From an uncultured Bacteroidia bacterium (lineage in GTDB: Bacteria > Bacteroidota > Bacteroidia > Bacteroidales > F082): a stretch of 36,462 bases of DNA. The stretch covers positions 1 to 36,462 of the forward strand of contig CACZQL010000103.1 in the NCBI GenBank assembly GCA_902783365.1. Reading direction: 5' to 3'. The notes under the pieces were generated by a model. That model was not told the DNA's origin, searched no databases, and saw nothing but the letters and a program-made list of their open reading frames with translations. Of the stretch, positions 4,031 through 36,118 are shown piece after piece. The first letter of the stretch is position 1. Every line of letters begins with the position of its first letter. Both the position numbers and the translations under genes were made by a program.

Positions 4031-4107
4031 TTCGGAATGCGGAATTCGGAATGCGGAATAATTACCTCCGGCAGGCATATTCCGCATTCCGCATTCCGCA
4101 TTCCGAA
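4031..4107. terminator. Hairpin of mirrored 7-bp repeats between convergent genes
   Basis: The left arm is four 7-bp units of TKCGGAA (4031-4058) and the right arm four units of TTCCGMA (4080-4107). The arms are largely complementary, giving a stem of up to about 28 bp around a 21-nt loop. It fills nearly the whole gap between the holA stop (4029) and the acyl-CoA ligase stop (4108). It could act as a bidirectional transcription terminator, though it lacks a clean U-tract. Confidence 0.7.
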
Positions 4108-5886
4108 TTACCTAAACAGGTTCTCGATTTGGGGTTTGTAGTGCTCGGCGATGACGTTGCGGCGGATTTTCATGGTGCTGGTGACTTCGCCCTTCTCGGC
4201 GCTGAAGTCCGTGGGAAGCAATTCGAATCGCATCACCCGCTCGTAGTCGCCCAAACGCTTGTTGAGGGTATCCACTTCCTTGCGGAACAGACCGACCACG
4301 TTCTTGTCCTTGATCATCTCAAGGTCGCTGTCGAAGTGGAGCTGCTGGCTTTTGCACCACATCCGCACCTGCTCGAAGTTGGGTACGATGAGGGCCGCGG
4401 CGAATTTCTGGCCTTCGCCCACTACCATGATGGAGTTGATGAAAGGCGACTCCAGCATGGTGTTCTCCACCAACGAGGGGCTGATGTATTTCCCCATCGA
4501 GGTCTTGAAGATCTCTTTCACCCTGCCTGTGAGGCGAAGGAACCCCTCTTCGTCGATGAGTCCCTTGTCGCCTGTGTGGAAATATCCCTCGCTGTCGATG
4601 ACCTCGGCGGTGGTCTCGGGCGACTTGAAGTAGCCTTTCATCACCGTGGAGCCTTTCACCAAGATCTCGCCTTCCTCGGAAATCTTCACATCGACGTTGC
4701 CCACGGGGAATCCCACGGTGCCGATTTTGATGTGTTTGGTCACGGGACTGTTCACCGCAATCACGGGGGAGGTCTCGGTGAGGCCGTAACCTTCCATGAC
4801 CGGCATCTTCATGGCGGTCAAAAGCTTGGAGATCTTGGGTTGGATGGTGGCCCCGCCCAGGATGATGACTTCGAGGTGGTTGCCAAGGGTTTCGCGCACT
4901 TTGCTGTAAACCAGCTTGTCGGCGACCCGGAGCTTCAGGTTGTACAGAATGCTGTTCTGGTGTTTGTCGTTGAACTCGTAACCTAGGTTGATGGCCCAGT
5001 CGAAAATCTTTTTCTCCATGCCTTTCATCTTGCTGCCTTTCAGTAGCACGGAGGCATGGACTTTTTCCAGAAGTCGGGGGATGGTGGTGAACACGTGGGG
5101 CTTCACCTCATTAATATCGTTGAGGATGGTGGCCATGTTTTCGGCGTAATACACGGTGGCGCCACGGTTCATGTAGGCCATCACCACTTGGCGTTCAAAG
5201 ATATGGGAGAGAGGTAGATAGCTGAAAAACCGGGTTGTTTTGTCCACATAGAACAACTGGCCTAGGCATTTGGTGTTGGAGGTGAGGTTTTCGTGGGTGA
5301 GCATCACGCCTTTCGGGGTGCCGGTGGTGCCCGAAGTGTAGATGACGGTAGCCATGTCGTGACGGTCCACGCGGTCTTTGGCCGCCTGAAGTCGCTCCGG
5401 GGCGACTGTCTCGCCCAAGGGCATCAGCTCTTCGAGGCTCATCAGACCCTCCACGGGCTTGATGGAGACGATCTTTTGCACGGTGGGAAGCTCCGCCTGG
5501 ATGCGCTCAATCTTCCGGTAGATGTCTTGCCCGTAGATGAAAAGCAGCTTGGACTCCGAGTGGTTGATGTTGTATTTGTAGTCGTTCTCGCTGATGGTGG
5601 TGTAGAGAGGCACGGTGACGGCACCCACCTGCTGGATGGCCCAGTCGATGAAATTCCAATGGGGACAGTTGCGCGAGGCCAAAGCGACACGGTCGCCTTT
5701 TTGAATCCCCAAAGCCATCAGCGCGCGGCTGACACGGTCCATCAGCTGAAGCGCCTCCTCAACCGTGTAAACCCTCCACTCGCCGTTCTCTTTAGCGGCA
5801 AGGATGGTCTTGGACTTCCCATATTCCTTCTCCAGCTTGGGAAGAAGGTCAAAGGTCCTCAAAGGAGCTCCATCGTAAGTTACCAT
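4108..5886 (-). CDS. Long-chain fatty acid--CoA ligase (AMP-forming)
   Basis: This 592-residue ANL-superfamily enzyme activates fatty acids via an acyl-adenylate and transfers them to CoA. The P-loop-like motif A3 (YTSGTTGTPKGVMLTHENL) lies near residues 181-199. The later motif GYGLTETSP and the hinge/adenylation motif YFHTGDKG are present, as is the C-terminal lysine region near KGEVTSTMKIRR. The overall layout is that of the FadD15/ACSL-type subgroup, with the long insert containing YLPLSHIFER. The frame is open to 5955, but the 23 upstream residues are atypical. MVTYDGAP at 5886 is a better start and has a TATTTTTG promoter element 46 nt upstream. It is convergent with holA and divergent from dtd. 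Confidence 0.88.
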   Translation of the reverse strand: MVTYDGAPLRTFDLLPKLEKEYGKSKTILAAKENGEWRVYTVEEALQLMDRVSRALMALGIQKGDRVALASRNCPHWNFIDWAIQQVGAVTVPLYTTISENDYKYNINHSESKLLFIYGQDIYRKIERIQAELPTVQKIVSIKPVEGLMSLEELMPLGETVAPERLQAAKDRVDRHDMATVIYTSGTTGTPKGVMLTHENLTSNTKCLGQLFYVDKTTRFFSYLPLSHIFERQVVMAYMNRGATVYYAENMATILNDINEVKPHVFTTIPRLLEKVHASVLLKGSKMKGMEKKIFDWAINLGYEFNDKHQNSILYNLKLRVADKLVYSKVRETLGNHLEVIILGGATIQPKISKLLTAMKMPVMEGYGLTETSPVIAVNSPVTKHIKIGTVGFPVGNVDVKISEEGEILVKGSTVMKGYFKSPETTAEVIDSEGYFHTGDKGLIDEEGFLRLTGRVKEIFKTSMGKYISPSLVENTMLESPFINSIMVVGEGQKFAAALIVPNFEQVRMWCKSQQLHFDSDLEMIKDKNVVGLFRKEVDTLNKRLGDYERVMRFELLPTDFSAEKGEVTSTMKIRRNVIAEHYKPQIENLFR

Positions 5887-5901
5887 GATCTTGCTACTCG
5901 T

Positions 5902-5970
5902 TATCTTTGAACGATTCCGTGAATTTTGGCTGCAAAAATACAACAAATACCACATAAAATACTATCTTCG
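5902..5970. promoter_or_regulatory. Divergent promoter region between acyl-CoA ligase and dtd
   Basis: On the minus strand TATTTTTG (5933-5940) matches TAnnTTTG and would serve the acyl-CoA ligase gene. On the plus strand TATCTTTG (5902-5909) matches exactly, and TATCTTCG (5963-5970) matches with one change and is closer to the dtd start at 5985. Which plus-strand element is used cannot be told from sequence. Confidence 0.45.
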
Positions 5971-5984
5971 CAAAAAATTTCGTC

Positions 5985-6437
5985 ATGAGAGTTGTCGTAC
6001 AACGTGTTTCAAAGGCCTCGGTCACGATCGACGGCAAGCTGAAGTCGGAGATTGGACTGGGATTGTTGGTCTTGCTCGGCATTGAGGAGGCCGACGGGGA
6101 AGAGGATGTGGAATGGCTGTGTTCCAAGCTTTCCAAATTGCGCATCTTCTCCGATGAGAATGATGTTATGAATCTGGATATCAATCAAGTAGAGGGTTCT
6201 TTTTTGGTGGTGAGCCAGTTTACCCTCCATGCCTTGACCAAGAAAGGCAACCGCCCGAGTTTCATCCGCGCGGCGCGTCCTGAACAGGCCATCCCCCTCT
6301 ATGAGCGATTCGTCCAACGTATTCATGAAGTCTCGGGCCGTGAGGTCCTTACCGGCGAGTTCGGTGCCATGATGGACGTGGCCCTCGTCAACGACGGCCC
6401 CGTCACCATCCTCATGGACTCCAAACACAAAGAATGA
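5985..6437 (+). CDS. dtd: D-aminoacyl-tRNA deacylase (Dtd)
   Basis: The 150-residue cytoplasmic protein carries both DTD signatures. SQFT is at residues 77-80, followed by the KKGNRPSF segment. The NDGPVT cross-subunit Gly-cisPro motif is at 136-141 (Gly138-Pro139). The enzyme removes D-amino acids, and glycine mischarged on tRNA-Ala, from tRNA as a homodimer. The length equals the family norm. It is followed 45 nt later by rbfA, which has its own promoter-like TATCTTTG, so the two may be transcribed together or separately. I see nothing unusual. Confidence 0.95.
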   Translation: MRVVVQRVSKASVTIDGKLKSEIGLGLLVLLGIEEADGEEDVEWLCSKLSKLRIFSDENDVMNLDINQVEGSFLVVSQFTLHALTKKGNRPSFIRAARPEQAIPLYERFVQRIHEVSGREVLTGEFGAMMDVALVNDGPVTILMDSKHKE

Positions 6438-6448
6438 AAAAAAAGTTG

Positions 6449-6456
6449 TATCTTTG
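6449..6456 (+). promoter_or_regulatory. Bacteroidota-type -7 element (TATCTTTG) for rbfA
   Basis: TATCTTTG matches TAnnTTTG exactly and lies 26 nt before the rbfA ATG, in the short dtd-rbfA gap. No -33 element is evident at the usual spacing. Confidence 0.5.
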
Positions 6457-6482
6457 TCCCCCAAAAATTTCCACTTAATACT

Positions 6483-8059: not shown

Positions 8060-8816
8060 ATGCTTGCACGGAGAGTTGTTCGGGTCTTTGGTCGAACACT
8101 TTGTTTCCGATGATTTCGGGGGAGAGCATGGGCCGCAGCGAGTTGCGAAGCGTTTTCCGGCGTTGGTTGAAGGCTTGTTTGACGATGCTCACGAACAGTT
8201 TTTCGTCGCAATTCAGGGTGGCGACATGGTTGCGTCGCATCTTGATGACTGCCGATTTGACCTTCGGGGGTGGATTGAACACGTTTTCGTGAACGGTGAA
8301 GAGGTAGTCGATGTCGTACCAGGCCTGCATTAGCACGCTGAGGATGCCGTAGGTCTTGCTGCCTTCTTTGGCGGCCATGCGCTCGGCCATCTCTTTTTGC
8401 ACCATGCCCACCACTTCCACTACTTGGTCTTTGTATTTCAGCACTTGGAAGAAGATCTGGCTGCTGATGTTGTAAGGAAAGTTGCCGATGATGCCGAGGT
8501 TGTGAGGTCCGAATTGTGAGAGGTCGGTACGAAGGAAGTCGCCCTGGATGAGCCGTTCGCCGAGTTGCGGGAAATGCGTCTTCAGGTAGTCGATGGACTC
8601 ACGGTCGATTTCGATGACAGAGAACCGTTCTTTGAGGTCGTCCACCAGGTATTGGGTCAGCACTCCGGTGCCGGCGCCCACCTCGATGACGTGTTCCAAT
8701 TCGGGAGAGAGCTGCTCCACGATCTTTTGCGCGATGTTCAAATCGGTCAGAAAATGCTGTCCGAGAGCTTTTTTAGGCCTCACTTCTGCCTTCTGTCTTC
8801 TGTCTTCTGTCTTCAT
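8007..8816 (-). CDS. rsmA: 16S rRNA dimethyladenosine transferase (RsmA/KsgA)
   Basis: The 269-residue protein dimethylates the two adenines of the 3'-terminal hairpin of 16S rRNA. The KKALGQHFL N-terminal signature begins at residue 15, SAM motif I (IEVGAGTG) spans 44-51, and the catalytic NFPYNIS motif begins at 112. The ATG at 8816 overlaps the stop of the upstream TPR gene (ATGA), which supports it. However, the first 12 or so codons are made of a 7-bp tandem repeat (ACAGAAG) and look unlike family N-termini. A GTG at 8783 would start the protein at VRPKKALGQHFL, close to the usual family start. The 3' end overlaps the convergent permease gene by 53 nt. Confidence 0.93.
   Translation of the reverse strand: MKTEDRRQKAEVRPKKALGQHFLTDLNIAQKIVEQLSPELEHVIEVGAGTGVLTQYLVDDLKERFSVIEIDRESIDYLKTHFPQLGERLIQGDFLRTDLSQFGPHNLGIIGNFPYNISSQIFFQVLKYKDQVVEVVGMVQKEMAERMAAKEGSKTYGILSVLMQAWYDIDYLFTVHENVFNPPPKVKSAVIKMRRNHVATLNCDEKLFVSIVKQAFNQRRKTLRNSLRPMLSPEIIGNKVFDQRPEQLSVQAFIDLTNLMDPSASHGQP
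8783..8814. repeat. Heptanucleotide array over the rsmA start
   Basis: About 4.6 copies of CTTCTGT (ACAGAAG on the coding strand) run from 8783 to 8814, ending within the rsmA ATG. The second-to-fourth units are identical and the leftmost ends in C rather than T. Because 7 is not a multiple of 3, gain or loss of a unit would separate the ATG from the rsmA reading frame. Confidence 0.9.
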
Positions 8817-10615
8817 AGCTTCCTATAATTCTTCTTTGCTTGTGCGGTGTAAAGGCTGGTGGGGTAGAGGTCGATGAGTTGTTCGTAGTGTTGTTTGGCG
8901 TCTTCGCGGGCTTTCAGCTGGTGGTGTTCGATCAAGGCGGCTTTCATCAGGGCGTCGTCGGCCATGTAGCTGTCGGGAAACAGGGTGACGATTTGGAGGA
9001 ACAGGGTGTCGGCTTCCACATATTCCTTTCGTCGCTCCATGATTTCGGCTTTGCGGTAGAGTGCATGGGGTTTGCTGACCATGTTGCCGTCGGCGCAGAT
9101 GGAGTCGAGGACGAGCAGTGCTTGGTCTTCCTTGTGTTGGTAGATCTTGTAGTCGGCGCGTGCGATACGGTTGAGTTCTTTGCCGTCGGGGTCGATTTCG
9201 AGGTTGTCGCCGATGATGAGCGAGAGGGTCATGGCGTCGTTGGCGATGAGTTTCGAGGTGGCGGCTTTGAGGACGTCGAGTTGGGTCTGGGCCCAGGCGA
9301 ACTCCCCGATGAAATAGCGGAGCTGGGCGTTCTTGTAGCGTGCCTCGTGGCCGAGGGGTTCCTCTTTCATGGCTTTGTCAACCTGGCTGTAAAGCAGGGT
9401 GGCTTCCCACACCTCGTCGTTGTAGAGATAGATGTCGGCCAGTTTGAGTTTCAGCTGGCATTGCTGGAGCTTGAGGGTGGTTTGGTTGATGGCTTGTTGC
9501 AGCACTTCCACGGCCTGGTCCGACTGGTCGAGGTGATAGGCCATGAGGTCGGCTTGGATGGCGACGAGGTCGGCGTATTCCTTGCTGCCCACGTCGGGGT
9601 AGGCGGTTTCGATTTTTTTGCTGAGCCGCTCATACACTTTCTTGTCGGTCACATGGTTCTTGAGGCATTGCTGGTTTTCGGTCTTGATGGCGCCGATGAG
9701 GGCTTGGCCGTAAAAAGGGTAGGCCTTCCCCTTTTTCAGGATATAGTCGTAGGCGTCGTTGGCGATTTCGTATTGTCCGTTGGAGAGGCAGATGCCGGCC
9801 AGGTTGATGATTTGGAGGTCCTGGTCGTCGGTCCTTCGGTCGATGCTTTTGCATTGGGCCAGGGCGATGTCGTAGTCCTCCTCTTGGAGGGAGAACCACA
9901 CCAGCATTTGTGCGAACTCCACGTTGTCGGGCTTCTCCTGGGTTTTCTTCAGGAGGGCGATGCGCATCTCGTCAGCGATGCTTTTGTTGACATCGTAGAG
10001 CAGCAGGGTTTGGAACCGGTTTTTGATGGAGTTGTATTGGTCGGGGCGGCGTTCGAGTTCAAGCAGGTAGTATTCAAAGGCCTGCTGGTAGTTGTTCATG
10101 GCGTGATAGACACTGGCTTTCTCCATGTAGAAGGGGTTGTGGTCGGTGTTGATTTCGGCGCCTTTGTCAAGGATGCGGAGGGCATAGTCGTTCATCATCC
10201 GGCTTCGGAACATGTTGGAGATGTTGAGGATGGTGTTTCGGCTTTCGGGGAGGTCCTTGAGGATCTCGTTGAAGATTTTGTCGGCCTTGTCTTGCTGTTG
10301 GCTGTTGACATAGAGGTAGGCCAGGTCGATTTTTGATTTCCAGGCGTTGGGGTTTTTGCGGATGAAGCTTTTGAGTTCTTTCTCGGCTTCGCTGAGTTCC
10401 CCGAGCCGGATCATGCATTCGACATATTGGTTGAAGTGATGGGCTTGTGATTTTTTCTGGTAGAGATTCAGGTAGGCCGCCTTGGCTTTGTCGTATTCTT
10501 GTTTTTGGAAGAGGTTGCTGGCGAGTTGTTCCTCCACTTGGTTGTTGTTTTGTGCGAGGGTGGGGAGTTGCAGGAAGAGTAGGAGGAGGCAAAAGGCGAG
10601 GGCGGTGTTTTTCAT
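8813..10615 (-). CDS. Secreted tetratricopeptide-repeat protein
   Basis: The 600-residue protein starts with a clear Sec signal peptide (residues 1-21, ending LPTLAQ). It continues as helical repeats of about 34 residues with the TPR pattern (for example LASNLFQKQEYDKAKAAYLNLYQKK near residue 30 and EYVEADTLFLQIVTLFPDSYMADDALMKAALIEHH near residue 540). It is probably periplasmic or on the inner face of the outer membrane and mediates protein-protein contacts. It lies between a small lipoprotein gene (4-nt overlap at the start) and rsmA (4-nt overlap at the end), so the three are translationally coupled. No enzymatic motif is visible. The partner is unknown. Confidence 0.85.
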   Translation of the reverse strand: MKNTALAFCLLLLFLQLPTLAQNNNQVEEQLASNLFQKQEYDKAKAAYLNLYQKKSQAHHFNQYVECMIRLGELSEAEKELKSFIRKNPNAWKSKIDLAYLYVNSQQQDKADKIFNEILKDLPESRNTILNISNMFRSRMMNDYALRILDKGAEINTDHNPFYMEKASVYHAMNNYQQAFEYYLLELERRPDQYNSIKNRFQTLLLYDVNKSIADEMRIALLKKTQEKPDNVEFAQMLVWFSLQEEDYDIALAQCKSIDRRTDDQDLQIINLAGICLSNGQYEIANDAYDYILKKGKAYPFYGQALIGAIKTENQQCLKNHVTDKKVYERLSKKIETAYPDVGSKEYADLVAIQADLMAYHLDQSDQAVEVLQQAINQTTLKLQQCQLKLKLADIYLYNDEVWEATLLYSQVDKAMKEEPLGHEARYKNAQLRYFIGEFAWAQTQLDVLKAATSKLIANDAMTLSLIIGDNLEIDPDGKELNRIARADYKIYQHKEDQALLVLDSICADGNMVSKPHALYRKAEIMERRKEYVEADTLFLQIVTLFPDSYMADDALMKAALIEHHQLKAREDAKQHYEQLIDLYPTSLYTAQAKKNYRKL

Positions 10616-14652: not shown

Positions 14653-14698
14653 GTAAAAATAGTAAAGGTGTTTACAGTAAATACAAATACTTTTTTTT

Positions 14699-14780
14699 CT
14701 GGTGTCCCGCATCCAGTGTTCTGGTGTCCCACATCCAGTGTTCTGGTGTCCCACATCCAGTGTCCTGGTGTCTCGCACTC
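14699..14780. repeat. 22-bp hairpin-forming tandem repeat
   Basis: Three near-identical 22-bp units (CTGGTGTCCCACATCCAGTG plus TT/TC) run from 14699 to 14764, with a partial fourth at 14765-14780. Each unit can form its own short hairpin (CTGG/CCAG ends). Together with the palindromic elements to the right they fill the 597-nt gap 14625-15221, in which no gene is seen. Confidence 0.85.
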
Positions 14781-14808
14781 CGCACCCCGTGTCCCGATAT
14801 CCCGGTAT

Positions 14809-15014
14809 CCCCACACTGACGTGCATGTCCCCACACTGACGTGCGGGGTTACGAGGATGTCGTGCCTTCGGCACTCCCTATCCTCACCCCACTTGGAGCC
14901 CCACACTGACGTGCGGGGTTACGGGGATGTCGTGCCTTCGGCACTCCCTATCCTCACCCCACTTGGAGCCCCACACTGACGTGCGGGGTTACGGGAATGT
15001 CGTGCCGTTGGCAC
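14809..15014 (+). repeat. REP/BIME-like palindrome array, direct copies with 70-bp period
   Basis: Three 46-bp elements start at 14829, 14899 and 14969, exactly 70 bp apart. Each has a first hairpin (CCCCACAC-TGAC-GTGCGGGG, one mismatch), a spacer of about 13 nt, and a second hairpin (GTGCC-TTC-GGCAC). The 24-bp stretch between elements is repeated too. A short copy with only the first hairpin lies at about 14809-14828. The third element has a changed loop (GTTGGCAC). They flank the IS200-like transposase. Confidence 0.9.
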
Positions 15015-15045
15015 TCATATCGTATCCCCTAGCGTAGTACTGGTA

Positions 15046-15211
15046 GTGCCGAAGGCACGGCATCCTCGTAACCCCGCACGTCAGTGTGGGGTTACTAGGA
15101 CATGGGGTTACTAGGACATGTGGTGCTGAGTGTGGGGCTCCGAGTGAGGGTGTGGACAGACACTGGCTCGGTGCTGCTATAGGGGGTGGGGACTGGGAGT
15201 GCCGAAGGCAC
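15046..15211 (-). repeat. Inverted copies of the palindrome element next to the transposase 3' end
   Basis: 15046-15091 is a complete 46-bp element in inverse orientation. It is followed by two 16-bp direct repeats of GGGGTTACTAGGACAT (15088-15119). A lone second hairpin (GTGCC-GAA-GGCAC, 15199-15211) lies 10 nt from the transposase stop codon. Head-to-head pairs of this kind are what BIME structures look like. Confidence 0.85.
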
Positions 15212-15221
15212 GACACAGCTG

Positions 15222-15671
15222 CTAATCACTGAGGAAGAAACGCTCGTCAATGGTTATCCCGTTCTCTATGAGAAAAGAACGATATTCTTCAGCGAAAGTG
15301 GTTGTCAGATGATGCTCTTTCTGCTTCATGATATAACCAATGATCATATCCCTGTCGCGGAGACTATAGCTGAAGCCCGCGTATTCGTGACCCCAACCTC
15401 TGAAATTAGGGAAGTTCGGGTTCGTTTTCAGCCATCTGCTGCTGTTTGCCTTGATTTTTTGCACAAAAGCGGAGAGCGACAAGGTGGGCGGTATGGACAC
15501 GAAGATATGGATGTGATCGGGCATCCCTCCTATGCGGTAGGTCTGGCAGTGGAGGCTTTTTGCGATACCATGAAGGTAGGCGTACAACTCCCTCTCATGG
15601 TCGAAGGGGATGGTCGGCTCACTACGGTAGGTGCGGAACACGATATGGAAATAGGTGGTGGTATGGCTCAT
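15222..15671 (-). CDS. IS200-like / REP-associated tyrosine transposase (Y1_Tnp)
   Basis: The 149-residue protein is a single-domain HUH transposase. The metal-binding HIH motif sits in MPDHIHIF (His53, His55), and the probable catalytic tyrosine is Tyr113 in GYIMKQKEHH, with the family-typical Gln117. The SAFVQKIKANSSRWL helix and the C-terminal GITIDERFFL segment fit Bacteroidota members. Such enzymes cut single-stranded DNA beside hairpins. The abundance of palindromes on both sides suggests the REP-associated (RAYT) type rather than a freely moving IS. The frame runs upstream to 15761 through 20-bp repeats, but the ATG at 15671 begins the conserved domain. It is intact and may be active. 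Confidence 0.88.
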   Translation of the reverse strand: MSHTTTYFHIVFRTYRSEPTIPFDHERELYAYLHGIAKSLHCQTYRIGGMPDHIHIFVSIPPTLSLSAFVQKIKANSSRWLKTNPNFPNFRGWGHEYAGFSYSLRDRDMIIGYIMKQKEHHLTTTFAEEYRSFLIENGITIDERFFLSD

Positions 15672-15700
15672 GATGTTGTTGCTTTTGTTGGGTTGCCTCA

Positions 15701-15801
15701 CACTGACGTGCATGCCCCCACACTGACGTGCATGCCCCCACACTGACGTGCATGCCCCCACACTGACGTGCGGGGTTACGAGGATGTCGTGCCTTCGGCA
15801 C
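15701..15801 (+). repeat. 20-bp tandem hairpins plus full palindrome element at the transposase 5' side
   Basis: Three perfect tandem 20-bp units (CACTGACGTGCATGCCCCCA) occupy 15701-15760. A complete 46-bp two-hairpin element follows at 15756-15801, identical to the one at 14829. The 20-bp units are copies of only the first hairpin. The gap 15672-15854 holds no gene. Confidence 0.9.
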
Positions 15802-15854
15802 TGGGAGAGGGGGTGGGGGTTATACCAAAGGGTGAGGCGGATGGGATGGTTTGA

Positions 15855-20714: not shown

Positions 20715-21860
20715 ATGAATAAAACTATTAAATTATTTTCTTTAATCCTTTTGATGGGGGTCACGACGGTGACCTTCGCCCAAGAGGCGCAGGAAGAGAA
20801 ACAGCCTGTGTATCAGTTTACGGAAACCGTCAACGTGCCGCATACTGCGGTGGATAACCAAGGCAGCTCCGGCACCTGCTGGTGCTTTGCCGGCATCGGC
20901 TTCGTGGAGGCGGAGATCCTCCGGATGTACGGCAAGGAATTCAACCTCTCCGAGATGTTCGTGGTGCGCAACGCCTGGTCGGAGAAGGTGGCCAAGTTCG
21001 TCAGGATGCATGGTGGCAGCTCGCTCAGCCAAGGCGGCGAGGTGTGCGACGTGCTGTATATGATCGACAAATACGGCATGATGCCCGAGGCCGACTACAG
21101 CGGCAAGGTGATCGGCGAGGAACGCCACATGCACAGTGAGATGAACGAAGTGATTGCCGGGGTGGCTCGCGCCATCATCAAGAACGGCAACAAAAAGATC
21201 TCGCCCGCGGGTCCCAAAGCCGTGCAAGGTGTTCTCGATGCCTATCTCGGCGACGTCCCCGAGGACTTCACCGTCGATGGCAAGAAATACACGCCCAAAT
21301 CGTTCGCCGAGGCTTATCCCATCGACCCCGCCAACTACATTGAAATCTGCTCCTTCACCAGTGAAGAAAACTACAAGCCTTGCATGGTGGAGATTCCCGA
21401 CAACTGGACGTGGACCCCAGCCTACAATATGCCGCTCGACGAGTTGATGCAAGCGGTGGACTACGCTCTTGAGCATGGCTACACCCTCGGCTGGGCCCAG
21501 GATGTGAGCAACAAGGGCTTCTCAGGCAAGACCGGCATCGGCATTGTGCCAGAAGACCCCGACGCCACCCTCTGGGAAGAAATCGTCGCTGAAAAGAAGG
21601 TCACCGATGAGGACCACCAAAACGCTTACGACAACTGGGACGCCGGCGACGACCACAGCATGCTGGTGGTCGGCATCGCCAAGGACCAAAATGGCAACAA
21701 GTATTATAAAATCAAGAACTCCTGGGGCACCGAAAGAGGACCCTACAAAGGCTATTGGTACTGCTCGGAGCAATACCTCCGCCAATACACCATTTTCTTT
21801 ACCTTGCATAAGGATGCCCTCTCCAAGGCCATGAGGAAGAAGTTGAAAGTGGAAAACTGA
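20715..21860 (+). CDS. Secreted C1 family peptidase (bleomycin-hydrolase/PepC-like), copy 1
   Basis: The 381-residue papain-fold peptidase has a signal peptide (1-22, ending VTFAQ). The catalytic residues are all present: Gln49 in DNQGSSG, Cys55 (GTCWCF), His314 (DDHSMLV) and Asn335 (KNSWGT). The family is C1B-like. Classical bleomycin hydrolase/PepC enzymes are cytosolic aminopeptidases of about 450 residues, whereas this one is shorter and exported. It probably acts in the periplasm or outside the cell on peptides released by the C10 peptidase, which is inference from context. The last six codons (KLKVEN) and the stop lie inside a 7-bp repeat array. A second copy follows 83 nt downstream. 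Confidence 0.9.
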   Translation: MNKTIKLFSLILLMGVTTVTFAQEAQEEKQPVYQFTETVNVPHTAVDNQGSSGTCWCFAGIGFVEAEILRMYGKEFNLSEMFVVRNAWSEKVAKFVRMHGGSSLSQGGEVCDVLYMIDKYGMMPEADYSGKVIGEERHMHSEMNEVIAGVARAIIKNGNKKISPAGPKAVQGVLDAYLGDVPEDFTVDGKKYTPKSFAEAYPIDPANYIEICSFTSEENYKPCMVEIPDNWTWTPAYNMPLDELMQAVDYALEHGYTLGWAQDVSNKGFSGKTGIGIVPEDPDATLWEEIVAEKKVTDEDHQNAYDNWDAGDDHSMLVVGIAKDQNGNKYYKIKNSWGTERGPYKGYWYCSEQYLRQYTIFFTLHKDALSKAMRKKLKVEN

Positions 21861-21881
21861 AAGTGGAAAGTGGAAAGTTAT
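21840..21881. repeat. Heptanucleotide array over the stop codon of C1 peptidase 1
   Basis: Six 7-bp units of AAGTGGA type (with AAGTTGA, AAACTGA and AAGTTAT variants) run from 21840 to 21881. The peptidase stop codon (21858-21860) is inside the third unit, so the array encodes the protein's C-terminus. Confidence 0.85.
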
Positions 21882-21943: not shown

Positions 21944-23185
21944 ATGAAAATCAGACATTTTCTTAGTGCAGCCGCATTGATGCTCAGCGTCGCGGCCATC
22001 GCCCAACCTCAAGCCACGATGCCGAAACCTGCCGACAAAGATGAAGAGGAAGGCTTCAAGTTTGAAACCATCAAGGAACTTCCTGTCACCTCCGTGAAAG
22101 ACCAGAACCAAGCCGGTACCTGCTGGTGCTACTCCTCCCTGGCTTTCTTCGAGGCGGAACTCCTCCGTATGAAGAAACCCGAGTACGACTTCTCCGAGAT
22201 GTACATTGTGTATAAGACCTACCTCGACCGTGCCGAGGCCGCTGTCCGTACCCACGGCGACGTGTCCTTCTCGCAAGGCGGTTCCTTTGGCGATGTGCTG
22301 TATGCCATCAAACACTACGGTCTGGTGCCCGACTGTGAGATGCCCGCTGGCAAGATGCACGGCGACTCCCTCTCCAACTTCACCGAACTCTCCGCTGTGA
22401 CCGACCCCTACGTCGCTGGCGTGGTCAAAAGCCGCAAGATCCAAATGGATGCCGATGGCAACGCCCTGTGGAAGAAGGGCTTGGCCGGTATCTACGACGC
22501 CTACCTCGGCGTGCCTCCGACCGAGTTCACCTACAATGGCAAGAAATACACGCCCATGAGCTTCGCCGAATCCACTGGCCTCAACATGGACGACTATGTC
22601 AACCTCACCTCTTTCACTCACCATCCCTTCTATGAGCCTTTCGTCATCGAAGTGCAGGACAACTGGCGCTGGGGTCAGGCCTGGAACCTCCCCATCGATG
22701 AACTCATGCAGGTCATGGACAACGCCATCGACAAAGGTTATCCCATCGCTTGGGGCTCCGACGTGAGCGAACAAGGCTGGCTCCGTGGCAAGATGTCAGG
22801 CATCGCCGTCCTTCCCGACCTCGACGCCAAGGAAAAAGACCTCCAAGGCTCCGACATGGCCCACTGGATGGGACTCTCCGCCGCCGACCGCCGCAAGGAA
22901 GCCCAAAACCAGCCTACCCCCCAGAAATGGGTCACCCAAAAAGAACGCCAAATCGCCTACGACAACTATGAGACTGGCGACGACCACGGTATGCTGATCT
23001 ACGGCACCGCCAAAGACCAAATCGGCAACGAGTACTTCATCGTGAAGAACAGCTGGGGCGACGCCGGACAGTATCACGGCGTGTGGTACGTCTCCAAGGC
23101 CTTCGTCCGCTACAAGACCCTCAACATCGTGGTCCATAAGGACGCCCTGCCGAAGGACATCGCCAAGAAGCTGGGAATCAAGTAA
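21944..23185 (+). CDS. Secreted C1 family peptidase (bleomycin-hydrolase/PepC-like), copy 2
   Basis: The 413-residue paralogue of the preceding gene keeps the same order of motifs. It has a signal peptide (1-20, ending AAIAQ), Gln54, Cys60 (GTCWCY), His348 (DDHGMLI) and Asn369 (KNSWGD). An insert of about 30 residues before the histidine (KDLQGSDMAHWMGLSAADRRKEAQ region) makes it longer than copy 1. The two probably arose by tandem duplication and have diverged substantially, so their substrates may differ. The stop codon falls in the first unit of another 7-bp array. The lipoprotein gene at 23218 starts 32 nt later. Confidence 0.9.
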   Translation: MKIRHFLSAAALMLSVAAIAQPQATMPKPADKDEEEGFKFETIKELPVTSVKDQNQAGTCWCYSSLAFFEAELLRMKKPEYDFSEMYIVYKTYLDRAEAAVRTHGDVSFSQGGSFGDVLYAIKHYGLVPDCEMPAGKMHGDSLSNFTELSAVTDPYVAGVVKSRKIQMDADGNALWKKGLAGIYDAYLGVPPTEFTYNGKKYTPMSFAESTGLNMDDYVNLTSFTHHPFYEPFVIEVQDNWRWGQAWNLPIDELMQVMDNAIDKGYPIAWGSDVSEQGWLRGKMSGIAVLPDLDAKEKDLQGSDMAHWMGLSAADRRKEAQNQPTPQKWVTQKERQIAYDNYETGDDHGMLIYGTAKDQIGNEYFIVKNSWGDAGQYHGVWYVSKAFVRYKTLNIVVHKDALPKDIAKKLGIK

Positions 23186-23214
23186 GAAGTAAGAAGTTAG
23201 AAGTAAGAAGTAAT
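23180..23214. repeat. Heptanucleotide array at the stop codon of C1 peptidase 2
   Basis: Five 7-bp units (AAGTAAG, with one AAGTTAG and a final AAGTAAT) run from 23180 to 23214. The peptidase stop TAA is inside the first unit, and the next gene starts 3 nt after the array. Confidence 0.9.
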
Positions 23215-28057: not shown

Positions 28058-28066
28058 CTATCAATC

Positions 28067-28094
28067 GTAGAGACGGTGCCCGCACCGTCTCTAC
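28067..28094. repeat. Perfect 13-bp palindrome (GTAGAGACGGTGC)
   Basis: GTAGAGACGGTGC and its exact complement are separated by a CC loop. The element lies in the 65-nt gap between the CYTH and SLC13 genes. The GTAGAGACG...CGTCTCTAC ends match a palindrome family I recall from many Bacteroidota and cyanobacterial genomes. It could attenuate transcription into the transporter gene. Confidence 0.85.
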
Positions 28095-28098
28095 CTAC

Positions 28099-28126
28099 CT
28101 TTCACCTCTCACCTTTCACCTCATGA
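28099..28126. repeat. Heptanucleotide array at the SLC13 transporter start
   Basis: Three 7-bp units (CTTTCAC, CTCTCAC, CTTTCAC) run from 28099 to 28119. A degenerate fourth (CTCATGA, 28120-28126) contains the ATG start codon of the transporter gene. Confidence 0.85.
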
Positions 28127-29712
28127 CCTCTTCCTTCGACCCCCTGGATATGAACAACTACAAGGTGGAAAAACTGCCCAAGATGCAGAAATCCTCCTTC
28201 GAGAAATGGATGGCCCGCCTCGGCGGACCCCTCGCCATCATCGCCTTCGTGGTGATCTATTGGTTCAGCCACATCGGCTTTATCGACCACCTCAACCCCG
28301 AGTCGCTCACCGCCAAGGCTTTGAAACGTTGCAATGAAATCGGTCTCGACACCTTCATCCGGACCAACTACGCCATGCTCGCCATCTTTGTGGCGGGTCT
28401 CATCCTCTGGATGACCGAGGCCATCCCCAACTACCTCACCTCTTTATTAATTATCCTCGGCACGGTGCTATGCAACGTCACCTCGCAGAAGGATGCCCTC
28501 GCCCAGTTAGGACACCCGGTCATGTGGCTCAACATCCTCTCCTTCGTGCTGGCCAGCATGTTGGTCAAGACCCAGTTCGCCAAACGTATGGCGCTCGCCT
28601 TTGTCATCAAGTTCGGCAAAAGCGCCAAAGGCGTGCTGTGGAGTTTCCTGGTCATCAATCTGGTGCTGTCGGCTTTCATCTCCGCCACCACGGTGAAGGC
28701 TACCATCATGCTCCCCATCTTCATGACCGTCTGCGCCATCTACGGCGCAACGGGCGACCATCGCAACAACTTCGGACGCAACCTCGTCATCCAAAACCTG
28801 TTCCAGGTGAATGTCGGTGCCAACGCTTTCTATACCGGCAGTGGCGCTCACCTGTTGGCCATTTCCCTGATTGCCGGTTTCGCCGGCAGTTGCGACTTCG
28901 GCTACTCCGACTGGCTTATCGCCTGCGGCCCGATGAGTTTGTTGATCCTCGTGGTCGGCTTGCTTGTGGGAATGCACGTCTTCTTCCCCATGAAGAAAGA
29001 GGAACAGAAACCCCAAATCGATGGCGGTCTGGAACGCCTCAGGCAGGAACTCAAGGACATGGGCAAGATGAAGAAAGAGGAATACAAGGCGGTCGGCATC
29101 TTCGTTTTGGTGCTTTTCCTGTGGGTCACCAAAGGCACTTTCCATAACATCGACGAGACCATCGTGGCCCTCCTCGGTGCCATCCTCGCCCTGCTGCCCG
29201 GCATCGGCGTGGTTAAATGGAACGATGTCGATATCCCCTGGCATCTCATGCTCTTCTCCGCCGGCGCCTACACCCTTGGCTCCGGCCTCAATGCCACCGA
29301 CCTGCCCAACACCATGGTCAACGCCGGCTTTGACAGCCTCGGCATCACCGCCCAAACCCCCTTCTGGGTGCTGTATGTCATCCTGACCTTCTTGATGATG
29401 TATTCCGGACTGGTGTTCCAAAGCAAGACCATCCGCACCATGGTGTTCGTCCCCATCGCCCTCGGCGTGGAAGCCCGCTTCGGGTTCCCCCTGATGAGCC
29501 TCTCCCTCCCCGTGGCCATGCTCATCGAACATTGCTATGTGCTGCCTTTCAACAGTAAACCCGCCGCCTTGCTCTATAACACCAACATGTACAGTCAGAC
29601 CGATGCCTTCAAATACGGCATCACCATGATGACCTTCTCGTGGATTCTCATTCTGATATGGGGCGAAACGGTTCTCAAATGGCTGGGCATCACCCCGGGT
29701 CTGCTCTTTTAA
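28123..29712 (+). CDS. SLC13/DASS family sodium-anion symporter
   Basis: The 529-residue inner-membrane protein has about a dozen hydrophobic segments. A hydrophilic N-terminal tail of about 45 residues precedes the first segment (LAIIAFVVIYWFSHIGF). Later come the SATTVKATIMLPIFMTVCAIYG region and a C-terminal mirror-image half, as in the DASS (Na_sulph_symp) family. The family moves dicarboxylates, sulfate or phosphate with Na+. The present substrate cannot be read from sequence. The start at 28123 lies in a 7-bp array; MNNYK at 28150 is an alternative. The neighbours are TTM genes upstream and a two-helix membrane protein 12 nt downstream, which makes phosphate worth testing. Confidence 0.88.
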   Translation: MTSSFDPLDMNNYKVEKLPKMQKSSFEKWMARLGGPLAIIAFVVIYWFSHIGFIDHLNPESLTAKALKRCNEIGLDTFIRTNYAMLAIFVAGLILWMTEAIPNYLTSLLIILGTVLCNVTSQKDALAQLGHPVMWLNILSFVLASMLVKTQFAKRMALAFVIKFGKSAKGVLWSFLVINLVLSAFISATTVKATIMLPIFMTVCAIYGATGDHRNNFGRNLVIQNLFQVNVGANAFYTGSGAHLLAISLIAGFAGSCDFGYSDWLIACGPMSLLILVVGLLVGMHVFFPMKKEEQKPQIDGGLERLRQELKDMGKMKKEEYKAVGIFVLVLFLWVTKGTFHNIDETIVALLGAILALLPGIGVVKWNDVDIPWHLMLFSAGAYTLGSGLNATDLPNTMVNAGFDSLGITAQTPFWVLYVILTFLMMYSGLVFQSKTIRTMVFVPIALGVEARFGFPLMSLSLPVAMLIEHCYVLPFNSKPAALLYNTNMYSQTDAFKYGITMMTFSWILILIWGETVLKWLGITPGLLF

Positions 29713-29724
29713 CGCCTGCTCAAA

Positions 29725-31179: not shown

Positions 31180-31197
31180 ATATAAAGACAAAAGACC

Positions 31198-32094
31198 ATG
31201 AAAATAGAAAAGACAAAAATCCTCACTGAGGTCAAACGCTATGTCATTATCACCTTTGCGTTGTTGATGATGGCTTTCGGCTGGACAGGTTTCCTGATTC
31301 CCCAGCATGTGTTGGGTGGCGGCGTGAGCGGTATCGCGACCCTGATTTTTTATGCCACAGGTATCTCAACGGGTATTTCCGTGTTTGTCATCAACGGCAT
31401 CCTGGTGCTGATATCGCTGAAGGTGCTAGGACCCTCGTTTGGTATCAAAACGGTGTATTCCATCGTGATGGCTTCGCTGTTCTTCTCCATCTTGCAGCAC
31501 TTTATCACTGACCCGATTCTCGCAGGGGAGATGGCTCCTTTGGTCGAAGACAAGTTCCTCTCCTCCTTGATTGGTGGCGCGTTGGCGGGTACCGCCATCG
31601 GCATCGCTTTCACTCAAGGGGGTAGCACAGGCGGCACCGACATTGTGGCCATGATGATTTGCAAGTATCGCAACATCTCCCAAGGGAAAGTGATCCTGTT
31701 TTTGGACATCATCATCATCGCCTGTTCCTATTTCGTGGTGGAGACCGACAAGATTCAGACCATTATCTACGGCTTCGTGGTGATGGGGGTGTGCAGCTAT
31801 TGCATCGACCTGGTGCTGACCGGCAATAAGCAGTCGATCCAGGCCTTCATCTTCACCAGCAAGCCCGAGAAGGTGGCCGACCGCATCGGCACGGAGTTGC
31901 AGCGTGGCGTCACCTTCATCAAAGGCACGGGATGGTACACCAAAAAGGAAGGTGACATCCTGATGGTGGTCACCCACAAGCGTGAGTCGCAGCAAATCCT
32001 CCGCATCGTGAAAGACGAGGATCCCACAGCCTTCATGACCATGAACATGGTGATGGGCGCCTACGGGAAAGGGTTTGAGGCGATAAGAAGGTAG
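31198..32094 (+). CDS. YitT family membrane protein with DUF2179 domain
   Basis: The 298-residue protein has five or six transmembrane helices in the N-terminal two thirds. They include the glycine-rich GFLIPQHVLGGGVSGIATLI motif and the internal repeat GGALAGTAIGIAFTQGGSTGGTDIVA. A cytoplasmic C-terminal DUF2179 domain (about 220-298, FTSKPEKVADRIGTELQRGVTFIKGTGWYTKKEGDILMVV) follows. YitT/DUF161 proteins are common in Bacteria; their transport role is not settled. It is the last of the tightly spaced genes. Its stop codon overlaps the first unit of a 7-bp array. Confidence 0.9.
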   Translation: MKIEKTKILTEVKRYVIITFALLMMAFGWTGFLIPQHVLGGGVSGIATLIFYATGISTGISVFVINGILVLISLKVLGPSFGIKTVYSIVMASLFFSILQHFITDPILAGEMAPLVEDKFLSSLIGGALAGTAIGIAFTQGGSTGGTDIVAMMICKYRNISQGKVILFLDIIIIACSYFVVETDKIQTIIYGFVVMGVCSYCIDLVLTGNKQSIQAFIFTSKPEKVADRIGTELQRGVTFIKGTGWYTKKEGDILMVVTHKRESQQILRIVKDEDPTAFMTMNMVMGAYGKGFEAIRR

Positions 32095-32141
32095 TTTACA
32101 GTTGACAGTTAGCAGTTTACAGTTTACAGTTTAGAGTATAG
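32093..32141. repeat. Heptanucleotide array over the YitT stop codon
   Basis: Seven 7-bp units of AGTTTAC and variants (AGTTGAC, AGTTAGC, AGTTTAG, AGTATAG) run from 32093 to 32141. The YitT stop TAG (32092-32094) overlaps the first unit. Confidence 0.9.
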
Positions 32142-32171
32142 GGCACCTCGGAGAGGCGCGACAACATAGTC

Positions 32172-33164: not shown

Positions 33165-33194
33165 TTTTTTTGTAAAATTTATCATAAATTGTTG

Positions 33195-33202
33195 TAATTT
33201 TG
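33195..33202 (+). promoter_or_regulatory. Bacteroidota-type promoter (TAATTTTG) for the beta-helix protein
   Basis: TAATTTTG matches the -7 consensus exactly. A TTTG at 33169-33172 lies 22 nt upstream, close to the usual -33 spacing. It precedes the ATG at 33245 by 42 nt. Confidence 0.6.
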
Positions 33203-33244
33203 CGGCTTGATTTTTGAGTATAATTTTATTCAACACTATAACAA

Positions 33245-36118
33245 ATGAACTCAACGACAAGTCGTTTTGCGAGGATAGCCGTGATGCTCATCCTCGCTTT
33301 GTCCATCACGAATGGTTGGGCGCAGACAACACTGAATCTATCTGGTGAGGGCTCAGAAGAGCACCCTTACGAAATCTCAAGCTTGGAGCATTGGAACAAC
33401 CTTGCTGACTATGTTGCGGAAGGCAACAATTGCTCCGGCCTTTTCTTCCTGATGACGAATGACATCGGAACAGCGGAAGCTCCTGTCACCAAGCCTCTTG
33501 GTCGTCAAACCAGCAGTAACAAGGTGGATAGGAAGCGTTTCGCCGGCACGTTCAACGGAGGGAATAACACCCTCACCGTCGCCTTGAACTCACAGGACGA
33601 TTGGTTTGTGTACAATCGCGGTTATTGCTCCCCCTTCGCCTACGTGCAACGTGCCACCATTCAAAACTTGCATGTGGTCGGTAAAGTGATTGCGGAAGGA
33701 CAATGGGCCAGCGGCCTGGTGGGTTCCACGGGCAATGGCAAGGCCGACGGCGTTTGTGTCATCGACCACTGCCAGGTGAGCGTTGAGATGGTCGCCAACT
33801 ATGTGAGCCACAACAGCTCCTACGGCAACCATGGCGGGCTTGTTGGTATTGCCGAAGGTAATACCACGATTACCAACTCCTGGTTCGATGGAAAGTTCCT
33901 GGGGGTGGACTATAAGTACTCCGCTGGCTTTATTGGCATCAACAAAGGGGTCGCCACCCTCGACAACTGCCTCTTCAATCCCTCGGAAATCAATATCACG
34001 AACAACAATATTGAAGGTTCTTGCGAGTTTGCGCATGACATGCAAGACGGCAGTCATACCCTCACGAACGCCTACTGGGTCAGCCATTTCGGCGAGCCAG
34101 AAAACGCCCAGGGCCAACGAGTCATCCCCCAAAGCTCGTTGCCGGTGGAGATCCAACAATCGGCTAATTTCGATTATTGTGTCACGACGGTTCACGCTGC
34201 CGACGGCAACCCCTATTATATTATTAAGCACAATCCCACCTGGATGGATGTGCAGACCAACTTCCTCAACGGTGTTGACATGGAGTTGCAAGCAAGCATT
34301 GAAGCAGGTACAGAAGACGGGGCGCTGGTGGTTCCGGCTGGTAAGACGGTCACCCTTCAATTGAACGGCACCCTCGATCGCGGTCTTATGCTGTCGGAAG
34401 AGGCTCACGATGAAGGCTATGTCATCAGCGTTGAGGAAGGCGCCAGCTTGACGATCATAGGCGGTACCCTCACTGGAGGCAATAACACTGGCCATGGCGG
34501 TGGCGTTTATAACGCCGGTACGCTGCACCTCAAGGACGTCACTGTCAGCGGAAACTTTGCCGAAGGCAATGGTGGTGGTATTTATAACGGAGGCAGCTTG
34601 GTGCTCGAGGATGTCACCATCACCGACAATAGAGGAAAAAACGATGCCAACAGAGGCATCGGTGTCTATGTCGCTGACAACGCCGCCCTCAGTCTCCAGG
34701 GATTGATTCAAATCACGGGAAATAACTATACTTATTTTAGCCCCATAGCACACCATGTCGCGCATAACCTCTATCGCAACGGTGTCATCACCCTTCAAGG
34801 CATCCTTGATGGGCAATCGTCTATCGGCGTGGAGGGGACGACGGGAGTCTTCACAAACGGTCTTGCCAATTATGGTGATGTGAGCTGCTTCACCAGCGAT
34901 GATGGCAACTTCAAAGTCGTTGACGAATCGGGTGAGGCCTCTTTGGTGGAACTCATCAAGCTCACTGTGGCGGGCTTTGGCAATACCGACGGAAAGTGGA
35001 TTTTCGTTGCCTCTCCTGTGGTGAGAGACCTTGGTCCTAAGGAAGTTGGCAACTTTGTTTTAAACCGTCCCAGTGATTACGACCTCTATCGTTTCAACCA
35101 GGAAGCTGAAGCGGAATGGGAGAATTACAAAAACGCTGAACATACTGAGGGATTTGTCCTTGAAAACGGCAAGGGCTATCTTTATGCCCGTAAGAATAAG
35201 GGGGATGTGGTGTTCCAAGGTCCCTTTAGTGAGGAGACTGAGACCACCGTTGAACTTGCCTACAATGAGAGTGCCACATGGAAAGGCTGGAACTTGGTGG
35301 GCAACCCGTTCCCGGTGCCTGCTTACGTCAACCGTAACTACTATAAGATGAATGCCGAAGGTACGGGTGTCGAGCCCGTGAATGTGGAAGAGAACGACGC
35401 TCCCATCGATGTCTGCATGGGTATCATGGTGCAGGCCGGGGGCTCGGGTGAAACGGTGAAGTTCAGCACGACTCCTTTTCAGCAGCAAGGGGGCGACAAG
35501 GGCAACTTGAGCATCGTCTTGTCCCAGAACACCCGTGGCAATGCGGTGCAAGACAAGGTCATGGTGAGCTTCAACGAAGGTAACCGTTTGGGCAAGTTCT
35601 ATTTTGGCAACAGCAATGCTAACCTTTATATTCCTCAGGGTGAGGAGGAATTCGCCATCGCCGATGCTGAGAAACAAGGTGAGATGCCCCTGAATTTCAA
35701 AGCCAAGATGGATGGTGAATATACCATCAGTGTGGATCCCGGGAACGTGGAGATGGACTATCTGCATCTGATCGACCATCTCACTGGCGCCGATGTGGAT
35801 TTACTCGCCAACCCGAGCTATACCTTCAGCGCAAAAGCCGATGGCTACGCCGCCCGCTTCCGCCTCGTGTTCAGCGCCAATAACGCCCAAGAGATGGCTG
35901 ACGAAAACGAGGCCTTCGCCTTCATCAGCGACGGCAACCTCATTGTCAACGGCACGGGTACCCTCCAGGTCTTTGACGCTCTTGGCCATCAGCTCCTCAC
36001 CAAGGAACTGCAAACTGCCAACTGCCAACTGCCAACTTCCAACTTAAATACTGGAGTCTATACGCTCCGCCTCATCCAGGGCAGCGACGTGAAAACCCAA
36101 AAAATCCTGGTAAGATGA
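33245..36118 (+). CDS. Large secreted beta-helix protein with T9SS sorting domain
   Basis: The 957-residue protein has a signal peptide (1-26, ending NGWAQ). Its N-terminal half carries short turn repeats of a right-handed parallel beta-helix, with GLVGSTGNG, GGLVGIAEGNTTITNSWF, GGVYNAGTLHLKDVTVSGN and GGIYNGGSLVLEDVTITDN. The last two resemble polymorphic outer-membrane-protein repeats. A beta-rich middle (about 580-890) contains WNLVGNPFPVPAYVN. The end is a T9SS type A-like sorting domain (GTLQVFDALGHQLL ... GVYTLRLIQG). Such surface proteins often act in adhesion; no enzyme motif is visible. The sorting domain contains a 7-bp repeat array that encodes its QTANCQLPTSN segment. It has its own promoter and a strong terminator after it. 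Confidence 0.85.
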   Translation: MNSTTSRFARIAVMLILALSITNGWAQTTLNLSGEGSEEHPYEISSLEHWNNLADYVAEGNNCSGLFFLMTNDIGTAEAPVTKPLGRQTSSNKVDRKRFAGTFNGGNNTLTVALNSQDDWFVYNRGYCSPFAYVQRATIQNLHVVGKVIAEGQWASGLVGSTGNGKADGVCVIDHCQVSVEMVANYVSHNSSYGNHGGLVGIAEGNTTITNSWFDGKFLGVDYKYSAGFIGINKGVATLDNCLFNPSEINITNNNIEGSCEFAHDMQDGSHTLTNAYWVSHFGEPENAQGQRVIPQSSLPVEIQQSANFDYCVTTVHAADGNPYYIIKHNPTWMDVQTNFLNGVDMELQASIEAGTEDGALVVPAGKTVTLQLNGTLDRGLMLSEEAHDEGYVISVEEGASLTIIGGTLTGGNNTGHGGGVYNAGTLHLKDVTVSGNFAEGNGGGIYNGGSLVLEDVTITDNRGKNDANRGIGVYVADNAALSLQGLIQITGNNYTYFSPIAHHVAHNLYRNGVITLQGILDGQSSIGVEGTTGVFTNGLANYGDVSCFTSDDGNFKVVDESGEASLVELIKLTVAGFGNTDGKWIFVASPVVRDLGPKEVGNFVLNRPSDYDLYRFNQEAEAEWENYKNAEHTEGFVLENGKGYLYARKNKGDVVFQGPFSEETETTVELAYNESATWKGWNLVGNPFPVPAYVNRNYYKMNAEGTGVEPVNVEENDAPIDVCMGIMVQAGGSGETVKFSTTPFQQQGGDKGNLSIVLSQNTRGNAVQDKVMVSFNEGNRLGKFYFGNSNANLYIPQGEEEFAIADAEKQGEMPLNFKAKMDGEYTISVDPGNVEMDYLHLIDHLTGADVDLLANPSYTFSAKADGYAARFRLVFSANNAQEMADENEAFAFISDGNLIVNGTGTLQVFDALGHQLLTKELQTANCQLPTSNLNTGVYTLRLIQGSDVKTQKILVR
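36006..36047. repeat. Heptanucleotide array inside the T9SS sorting-domain coding sequence
   Basis: Six 7-bp units (AACTGCA, three AACTGCC, AACTTCC, AACTTAA) run from 36006 to 36047, fully inside the coding sequence. The total length is 42 nt, so the frame is kept. The array encodes a stretch between two conserved parts of the sorting domain. Confidence 0.9.

Follow-up and report, generated by a model that had tools for sequence, protein, structure and literature searches.

The contig CACZQL010000103.1 of an uncultured Bacteroidia bacterium (Bacteroidales, F082; assembly GCA_902783365.1), hereafter the window, meaning the whole 36,462-nt stretch of DNA that was analysed, carries short tandem arrays of 7-bp units whose sequence differs from locus to locus. 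We give roughly even odds (about 0.5) to the reading that these arrays are heptamers amplified by slippage and copied between loci, kin of the heptamers of cyanobacteria and Xanthomonas, and thus a low-grade dispersed repeat. Directly visible are whole 7-bp steps between some relatives and the return of the same unit families at many unrelated places in one genome. Repeats of this kind are known from other bacteria; what is surprising is the close placement at gene edges, the direction of the arrays and the copies found inside enzyme genes.

Genome, samples and array detection

The 2.75-Mb genome to which the window belongs, as contig C103, is in 154 contigs and 84.4% complete (G000; G, C and L numbers are our handles for genomes, contigs and loci); rumen and gut Bacteroidales assemblies make up most of the closest named relatives that we found. 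Arrays were called by Tandem Repeats Finder (TRF) and by a lag test treating every period alike, in two samples of this genome. Sample 1 (390 kb) comprises the window and the contigs matched by a repeat search with a GGAATGC-hairpin query, and therefore leans towards that family. Sample 2 (232 kb) was taken from contigs outside those listed for the same query and leans away from it, some of its contigs having already been seen in other outputs. Gene edges come from our own hexamer gene finder, whose stops are surer than its starts, and order-3 Markov shuffles of the own-genome samples served as controls.

Excess of period 7 and its taxonomic spread

Among collapsed TRF arrays of the window with a score of at least 50, 7 of 13 have period 7, and the lag test gives 8 period-7 segments there; no other period from 2 to 30, multiples of 7 aside, has more than 2. 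The same test found 94 period-7 segments in sample 1, with 0, 4, 4, 8 and 0 at periods 5, 6, 8, 9 and 10, and 30 in sample 2, with 1, 0, 7, 8 and 2 at those periods. This corresponds to 24 per 100 kb in sample 1, a value that leans high, and 13 per 100 kb in sample 2, which leans low. Markov-3 shuffles contained no period-7 segments (one shuffle of 354 kb, 20 of 232 kb and three checked by TRF). Altogether, 125 such segments were counted in the 636 kb sampled of the 2.75-Mb genome, which probably holds several hundred arrays. The most frequent units among the 94 arrays of sample 1 are AATGCGG (17), AGAGGTG (15) and AAAGGTG (12).

Across the phylum, we surveyed 395 Bacteroidota genomes for AGTT occurring four times at a spacing of 7, 8 or 6, a pattern that detects AGTT units only and leaves periods 9 and 10 outside its range. 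Spacing 7 was matched in 168 of the 395 genomes, spacing 8 in 52 (some of these matches being AGTT tetranucleotide runs) and spacing 6 in 9. The window genome has 302, 51 and 0 matches at spacings 7, 8 and 6, the highest count of the survey for spacing 7, with G403 as the runner-up at 106. A reversed-pattern control is an impure negative, TTGA spaced 7 being itself a possible heptamer; it produced many matches in some genomes, and 11 in the window genome against the 302 for AGTT. Closer to home, limited sampling of 14 further genomes of the genus (∼457 kb in total) yielded 27 segments of period 7, 11 of period 8 and one of period 6, with no period-7 segments in the samples of four of the 14. 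Seven genomes from other families of the order (297 kb) had none either; the order is not empty, given that another of its genomes, G376, has 29 AGTT matches at spacing 7.

The first-pass annotation had made an excess of period 7 over other periods a test of its pattern, and such an excess is found in both own-genome samples and, for AGTT units, across the phylum. Its suggestion of a restriction to 7-bp steps holds only in so far as 7 predominates, as 8-bp arrays form a minority. By eye, 8-bp arrays (AGTTGTTC; GGGACTNC-like) stand beside heptamers or replace them in G000, L025, L035, L047, L067 and L090, and they too occur as inverted pairs.

Placement at gene edges

Predicted open reading frames (ORFs) contain 31 of the 94 arrays of sample 1, five of them at most 15 bp from the ORF end. 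Removal of these, and of seven arrays without a flanking gene on one side, left 56 for the placement test. Of the 56 intergenic arrays, 41 overlap an ORF edge or sit at most 2 bp from one, compared with a mean of 16.7 and a maximum of 27 over 2000 trials of random placement in the same spacers. Sample 2 has 14 of 24 arrays at an ORF edge, where random placement gives 5.3 with a maximum of 11, and 5 of its 30 arrays lie within predicted ORFs. The most frequent near gap is −2, with the array start sharing the final letters of the stop codon, and in the phylum set described below the near gap is at most 10 bp in 53 of 81 arrays. Spacers that carry arrays in sample 1 are convergent in 13 of 43 cases, codirectional in 32 of 194 and divergent in 2 of 44.

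The gene-edge process suggested at first reading is borne out as an excess at edges over random placement in both samples, and not as a confinement to translation boundaries, considering the arrays within ORFs (31/94 and 5/30). Neither of the two outcomes named beforehand as pointing to chance, a lack of period-7 excess and a lack of edge preference, came about. Such abutment is consistent with selection that lets arrays grow as far as coding sequence and, less often, into it.

Strand polarity

An array was assigned to the strand with more G than C in the window genome and the genus, and to the AGTT strand in the phylum set. Read in this way, 37 spacers of sample 1 have arrays that run outward with respect to the closer ORF edge, 6 have inward arrays and 2 are mixed; a purine rule gives 31 outward and 4 inward. 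Loci of the genus were outward in 33 cases, inward in 12 and mixed in 3 (P = 0.0025, with related species such as L028 and L079 not fully independent), and the phylum set of 78 stretches was outward in 59, inward in 16 and mixed in 1 (P = 6e-7). This last set covers 24 other Bacteroidota genomes of the 168 with matches, and omits the places in G000, one place at a contig end (G187) and two stretches of G403.

A test free of gene calls is provided by neighbouring arrays of opposite direction, which are always arranged with the purine-rich array on the left and the pyrimidine-rich array on the right (18 of 18 in the window genome and all six in each of the genus and phylum sets; outside the GGAATGC family, 9 of 9 in the window genome). 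The other neighbour pairs are one of the same direction and one undecided in the window genome, and two and four of the same direction in the genus and phylum sets. Selection of stop codons inside the array is insufficient as a cause of the polarity: of 17 arrays whose G-rich strand has no stop triplets, 16 run outward, 12 of them from the GGAATGC family, leaving small numbers outside it (4 versus 1). The outward polarity is real, and amplification by slippage with copying does not account for it. The candidates that we favour are fold-back synthesis, in which a purine-rich strand would always be copied into a pyrimidine-rich one, and selection for two-way terminator hairpins.

Turnover and length steps between species

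Several gene edges could be followed through relatives. For the spacer between the CYTH gene and the symporter gene, 76 loci carry both genes; with 10 spacers of >400 bp left out, a period-7 stretch was flagged in 9 of 66 readable loci, in 8 of them by the ATG. The units among relatives are AACTTTC, AACTCCT, AATTCTA, AAACTCT and AACCTAT, and the window has ACCTYTC. At the ksgA edge, AAGACAG is common to the window and G004, the same 36-bp stretch is occupied in G012 by AGTGAGA/AGTTATG, and the spacer of G007 is short and array-free. Among nine loci with both genes of the C1-like peptidase pair, a period-7 stretch was flagged at the 23180 site in two (L014 and L015).

In other species, three length differences were found with both flanks at least 95% identical, of 28, 7 and 13 bp. 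Two are multiples of 7 (L020 versus L030, 24 versus 52 bp; L079 versus L069, 27 versus 20 bp); the third (L030 versus L020, 22 versus 35 bp) is not.

A palindrome, GTAGAGACG...CGTCTCTAC, lies 3′ of the CYTH gene at window positions 28067–28094 and is also seen in several relatives. One that resembles it stands in frame within a different gene in L236, L238 and L239.

Arrays inside genes

Four array-bearing genes, named from Pfam, were aligned with relatives. In the gene that we take, from its family, to be IleRS, there is an in-frame insert of 11 residues that is absent in 14 of 14 aligned relatives. RibF (FAD synthetase/flavokinase) has an inverted-pair insert of at least 23 residues, absent in all 11 readable relatives, a twelfth row being empty. 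Asd (semialdehyde dehydrogenase) has ACCTCTC units in G000 and AACTCTC at the same stretch in G004 and G017; 13 of 16 relatives are without array and without insert, and arrays of other units are found in 2 of 16. In a THUMP-like gene (L135:10701-11924), the array takes the place of ∼17 native residues, a net gain of 2 residues relative to 10 of the 14 relatives aligned; the other four have their own insert nearby, and the array is missing from all 14. As judged from these alignments, arrays can insert as well as replace residues. From their families, the genes carrying in-frame arrays would be essential. The list of array genes, including IleRS, Asd, RibF and ksgA homologues, would tend to argue against phase variation of surface genes.

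The Asd stretch holds an unrelated glycine-alanine rich insert in G002 (L189), as if the site takes any insert. We also saw in-frame heptamer arrays in four MBOAT-family genes (L123 and L124; contig C76 of G000), in three of them at almost identical codon positions, around residues 357–372.

The arrays of the window

All seven period-7 loci reported in the first-pass annotation are recovered by TRF, one of them resolving into two inverted arrays around a 19-bp core, and a comparison with ORF edges agrees with its statement that six of the seven touch a start or stop codon, the seventh lying in frame within an ORF (Table 1).

Table 1. Period-7 arrays of the window and the core between the arms of the inverted pair
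Feature	Position	Period-7 TRF array	Strand	Context or evidence
GGAATGC-family array, left (purine) arm of inverted pair	4028..4059	4028-4059	+	TRF, junction print, Pfam
19-bp core AATTACCTCCGGCAGGCAT between arms	4060..4078		.	Variant of cores in other GGAATGC hairpins of the genome
Right arm of inverted pair, pyrimidine-rich on +	4079..4109	4079-4109	-	TRF; matches elsewhere in the genome
AAGACAG array	8783..8814	8783-8814	-	Between TPR gene stop (8813-10615, -) and ksgA start (8816, -)
AAGTGGA/AAGTTGA array	21840..21878	21840-21878	+	Spans stop (21860) of C1-like peptidase gene 20715-21860
AAGTAAG array	23180..23213	23180-23213	+	Begins in last codon and stop (23185) of C1-like peptidase gene 21944-23185
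ACCTYTC array (GARAGGT on -)	28097..28121	28097-28131	-	Adjoins ATG (28123) of Na/sulfate symporter gene
AGTTTAC array	32093..32141	32093-32137	+	Begins on stop of YitT gene (31198-32094)
AACTGCC array (GGCAGTT on -)	36006..36045	36006-36044	-	In frame near C-terminus of ORF 33245-36118

The left arm of the inverted pair overlaps the TGA at 4029 that ends a DNA polymerase III delta gene (3025-4029, +), and the right arm, at 4109, begins on the stop of an AMP-binding ligase gene (4108-5955, -), so that the pair occupies the whole 78-bp spacer between two convergent genes. The predicted RNA hairpin of 4024-4115 has a folding energy of −53.3 kcal/mol (z −10.4). Four single arrays (at 8780, 21838, 23178 and 32090) fold no better than shuffles, and RNA structure was rejected as a general function of the arrays on this ground. 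The AAGACAG array codes for an additional KsgA N-terminus, MKTEDRRQKAE. The array near the C-terminus of ORF 33245-36118, which has a Por secretion tail by Pfam, encodes ELQTANCQLPTSNL. Further short tandem arrays, of periods 16 and 11, are present at window positions 53–103 and 36221–36256.

GGAATGC hairpins and transposase genes

Arms of the GGAATGC family flank related cores in both orientations, 16 of which were listed. A 981-bp query with one GGAATGC copy had 99 matches in the genome, mostly to this element, palindromes being counted on both strands. Four inverted pairs of other families that were listed have no common loop.

In the genome at its 84% completeness, Y1_Tnp has three matches, one of them in the window, and RVT_1 has none. 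A palindrome beside a Y1 gene of its own kind, as expected of REP-associated tyrosine transposases (RAYT; REP, repetitive extragenic palindromic), was not found for the arrays at the three Y1_Tnp loci, which bear other repeats, and mobilisation by a RAYT was rejected on this ground. The lack of an RVT_1 match likewise speaks against a reverse transcriptase as the maker of the arrays, although the exclusion is weak in a genome 84% complete. One heptamer array lies ∼1.2 kb from the Y1_Tnp of L335.

The Y1 (RAYT-type) transposase gene of the window, with its Pfam match at 15321–15662 on the minus strand, lies in the region 14697–15825. Repeats of 70 bp and 20 bp, built on CCCCACACTGACGTGCGGGG, flank it; the motif searched for occurs 13 times in the genome, five of them here. 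The loci L335 and L336 have their own, different inverted repeats.

Comparison with known systems

Short tandem heptanucleotides dispersed in one genome are known from cyanobacteria as short tandemly repeated repetitive (STRR) sequences. The present arrays are like them in general form, being short, dispersed and tandem. By the excess of period 7 and the recurrence of one unit at many loci, the arrays belong with the dispersed heptamer repeats of bacteria, taking STRR-like in a broad sense.

The passages of Rehm et al. 2015 (PMC4692102) that concern such repeats describe G-quadruplex heptamers of the GGGNATC type in Xanthomonas and Nostoc, note an excess of bacterial heptamers for which no explanation is agreed, and cite three Calothrix heptanucleotides as well as a proposal in which the length of polymerase contact makes 7 the favoured unit. 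As far as those passages go, their repeats and the arrays of the window genome are alike in the 7-bp unit, in being dispersed and mostly non-coding, and in their scarcity between divergent genes. The polarity is also alike, the G-rich strand being sense after stops and antisense before starts, within 50 bp. In contrast to the single family described there, the arrays here comprise many unit families and often start on a stop codon, and they include pairs with the purine-rich array on the left and the pyrimidine-rich one on the right, as well as arrays in frame in enzyme genes that were aligned with those of relatives. The arrays of the window lack the four runs of at least three G expected of the GGGNATC type, having no GGG on either strand.

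Within its account of TAACTGA repeats in Beggiatoaceae and cyanobacteria, MacGregor 2015 (PMC4679880) reports them in five Bacteroidetes, so heptamers had been described in Bacteroidota before. These repeats resemble ours in having a 7-bp unit at gene edges, in the Guaymas Maribeggiatoa mostly just upstream of starts, and in that indels between two Cyanothece strains are mostly 7-nt steps. According to the same account, related heptamers are seldom repeated there, whereas here many coexist in one genome. TAACTGA is not a favoured unit in the window genome, where 27 canonical units were counted among 94 arrays, with AACTGAT in just 2; a TAACTGA array is present at L122.

Rickettsia palindromic elements, as outlined in PMC10969869, are ∼150 bp long and encode a conserved peptide in frame inside metabolic genes; the arrays resemble them as dispersed repeats in frame in metabolic genes, and differ in consisting of tandem heptamers whose unit varies. 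Families derived from heptamers are mentioned in ‘Satellites in the prokaryote world’ (PMC6749651), and a high density of short repeats in Bacteroidota is recorded by a 2025 survey (PMC12699852). In the open-licence literature, our searches brought up no account of heptamer arrays of several families that abut stop codons in Bacteroidota.

Origin of the arrays

If the arrays arise by slippage and copying, units would be gained and lost through strand slippage, and arrays would spread from locus to locus by short-homology copying, at times seeded on gene-edge sequence. They would pile up where selection tolerates them: as far as the stop and start codons, and also in variable protein stretches where the frame is stop-free. 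The unit sequence would drift while the 7-bp step stays, so that sister species come to have different heptamers at one and the same edge. The 7-bp steps indicate slippage, although clean steps are few, and the presence of the same units at unrelated loci means that some copying between loci is needed. That 7 is preferred to 6 and 8 is probably a property of the slippage machinery, along the lines of the polymerase-contact idea cited in PMC4692102.

Several observations weigh against this account. Plain slippage accounts neither for the polarity nor for a unit common to unrelated loci. No copying event was caught, no search having been made for donor-target pairs, and seeding from gene-edge sequence is suggested by a by-eye view of three junctions. 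Many length differences do not correspond to multiples of 7, the picture being mixed at lower flank identity, and 8- and 9-bp arrays also exist as a minority. The polarity in sample 2 (12 outward, 5 inward and 1 mixed; P = 0.14) is not significant alone. In addition, the GGAATGC family, with its related cores and strong fold in the window, may be a separate element resembling a miniature inverted-repeat transposable element (MITE).

It is conceivable, though rather unlikely, that the arrays are instead selected as cis elements, serving as two-way terminators after stops and open leaders before starts; inverted purine-then-pyrimidine pairs would terminate transcription, and G-poor pyrimidine arrays would suit translation without Shine-Dalgarno sites. 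Such a role would agree with the ranking of array frequency from convergent through codirectional to divergent spacers, the invariable arrangement of opposite-direction neighbours, the strong 4024-4115 hairpin and the short near gaps of the phylum set, but it sits poorly with the single window arrays that fold no better than shuffles, the numerous arrays within predicted ORFs, a CYTH-symporter spacer that already has its own hairpin, and a density that varies among sister species in small samples. Movement by a Y1 (RAYT-type) transposase, with the arrays as parts of REP/MITE-like elements, would explain the related cores between GGAATGC arms in both orientations and the 99 matches to the 981-bp query, and Y1_Tnp is at hand in the genome and in the window itself. 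We nevertheless consider it decidedly unlikely, because each Y1_Tnp locus is flanked by other inverted repeats of its own, no loop is common to the four inverted pairs of other families, and, in small samples of incomplete genomes, Y1_Tnp occurs in array-free genomes (e.g. G019 and G024) and arrays occur without a Y1_Tnp match (G005 and G014).

A dedicated enzyme that adds heptamers, such as a polymerase or reverse transcriptase copying a 7-nt template, appears very improbable. A fixed period with a variable unit and the single polarity of opposite-direction pairs are what it would produce; against it stand the missing RVT_1 match in this 84% complete genome and the 8-bp arrays and unit variants within arrays, which suit slippage better. 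Chance, or an artefact of metagenome binning and assembly, can be regarded as already refuted and receives practically no weight from us: the assembly is fragmented into 154 contigs and 84.4% complete, but shuffles yield no arrays, similar ones occur in many other assemblies, including contigs of 3.3–5.5 Mb, and in-frame arrays preserve the reading frame of genes common to relatives.

Beyond slippage and copying lies a wider idea, which we think quite unlikely, that a directional heptamer-writing process of fixed polarity, starting or stopping at gene edges, is common to Bacteroidota and maybe also to cyanobacteria and Xanthomonas. Rather than ordinary slippage, this would be a fold-back or templated activity making purine-left/pyrimidine-right hairpins only. 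If it were true, the flanks of stop codons, and even stretches of proteins, would be rewritten as species diverge. Why the unit is 7, why the arrays run outward from genes and whether they move between loci are questions testable in cultured Bacteroidota. Should they move between loci, proteins would gain new C-termini, N-termini and internal stretches from them.

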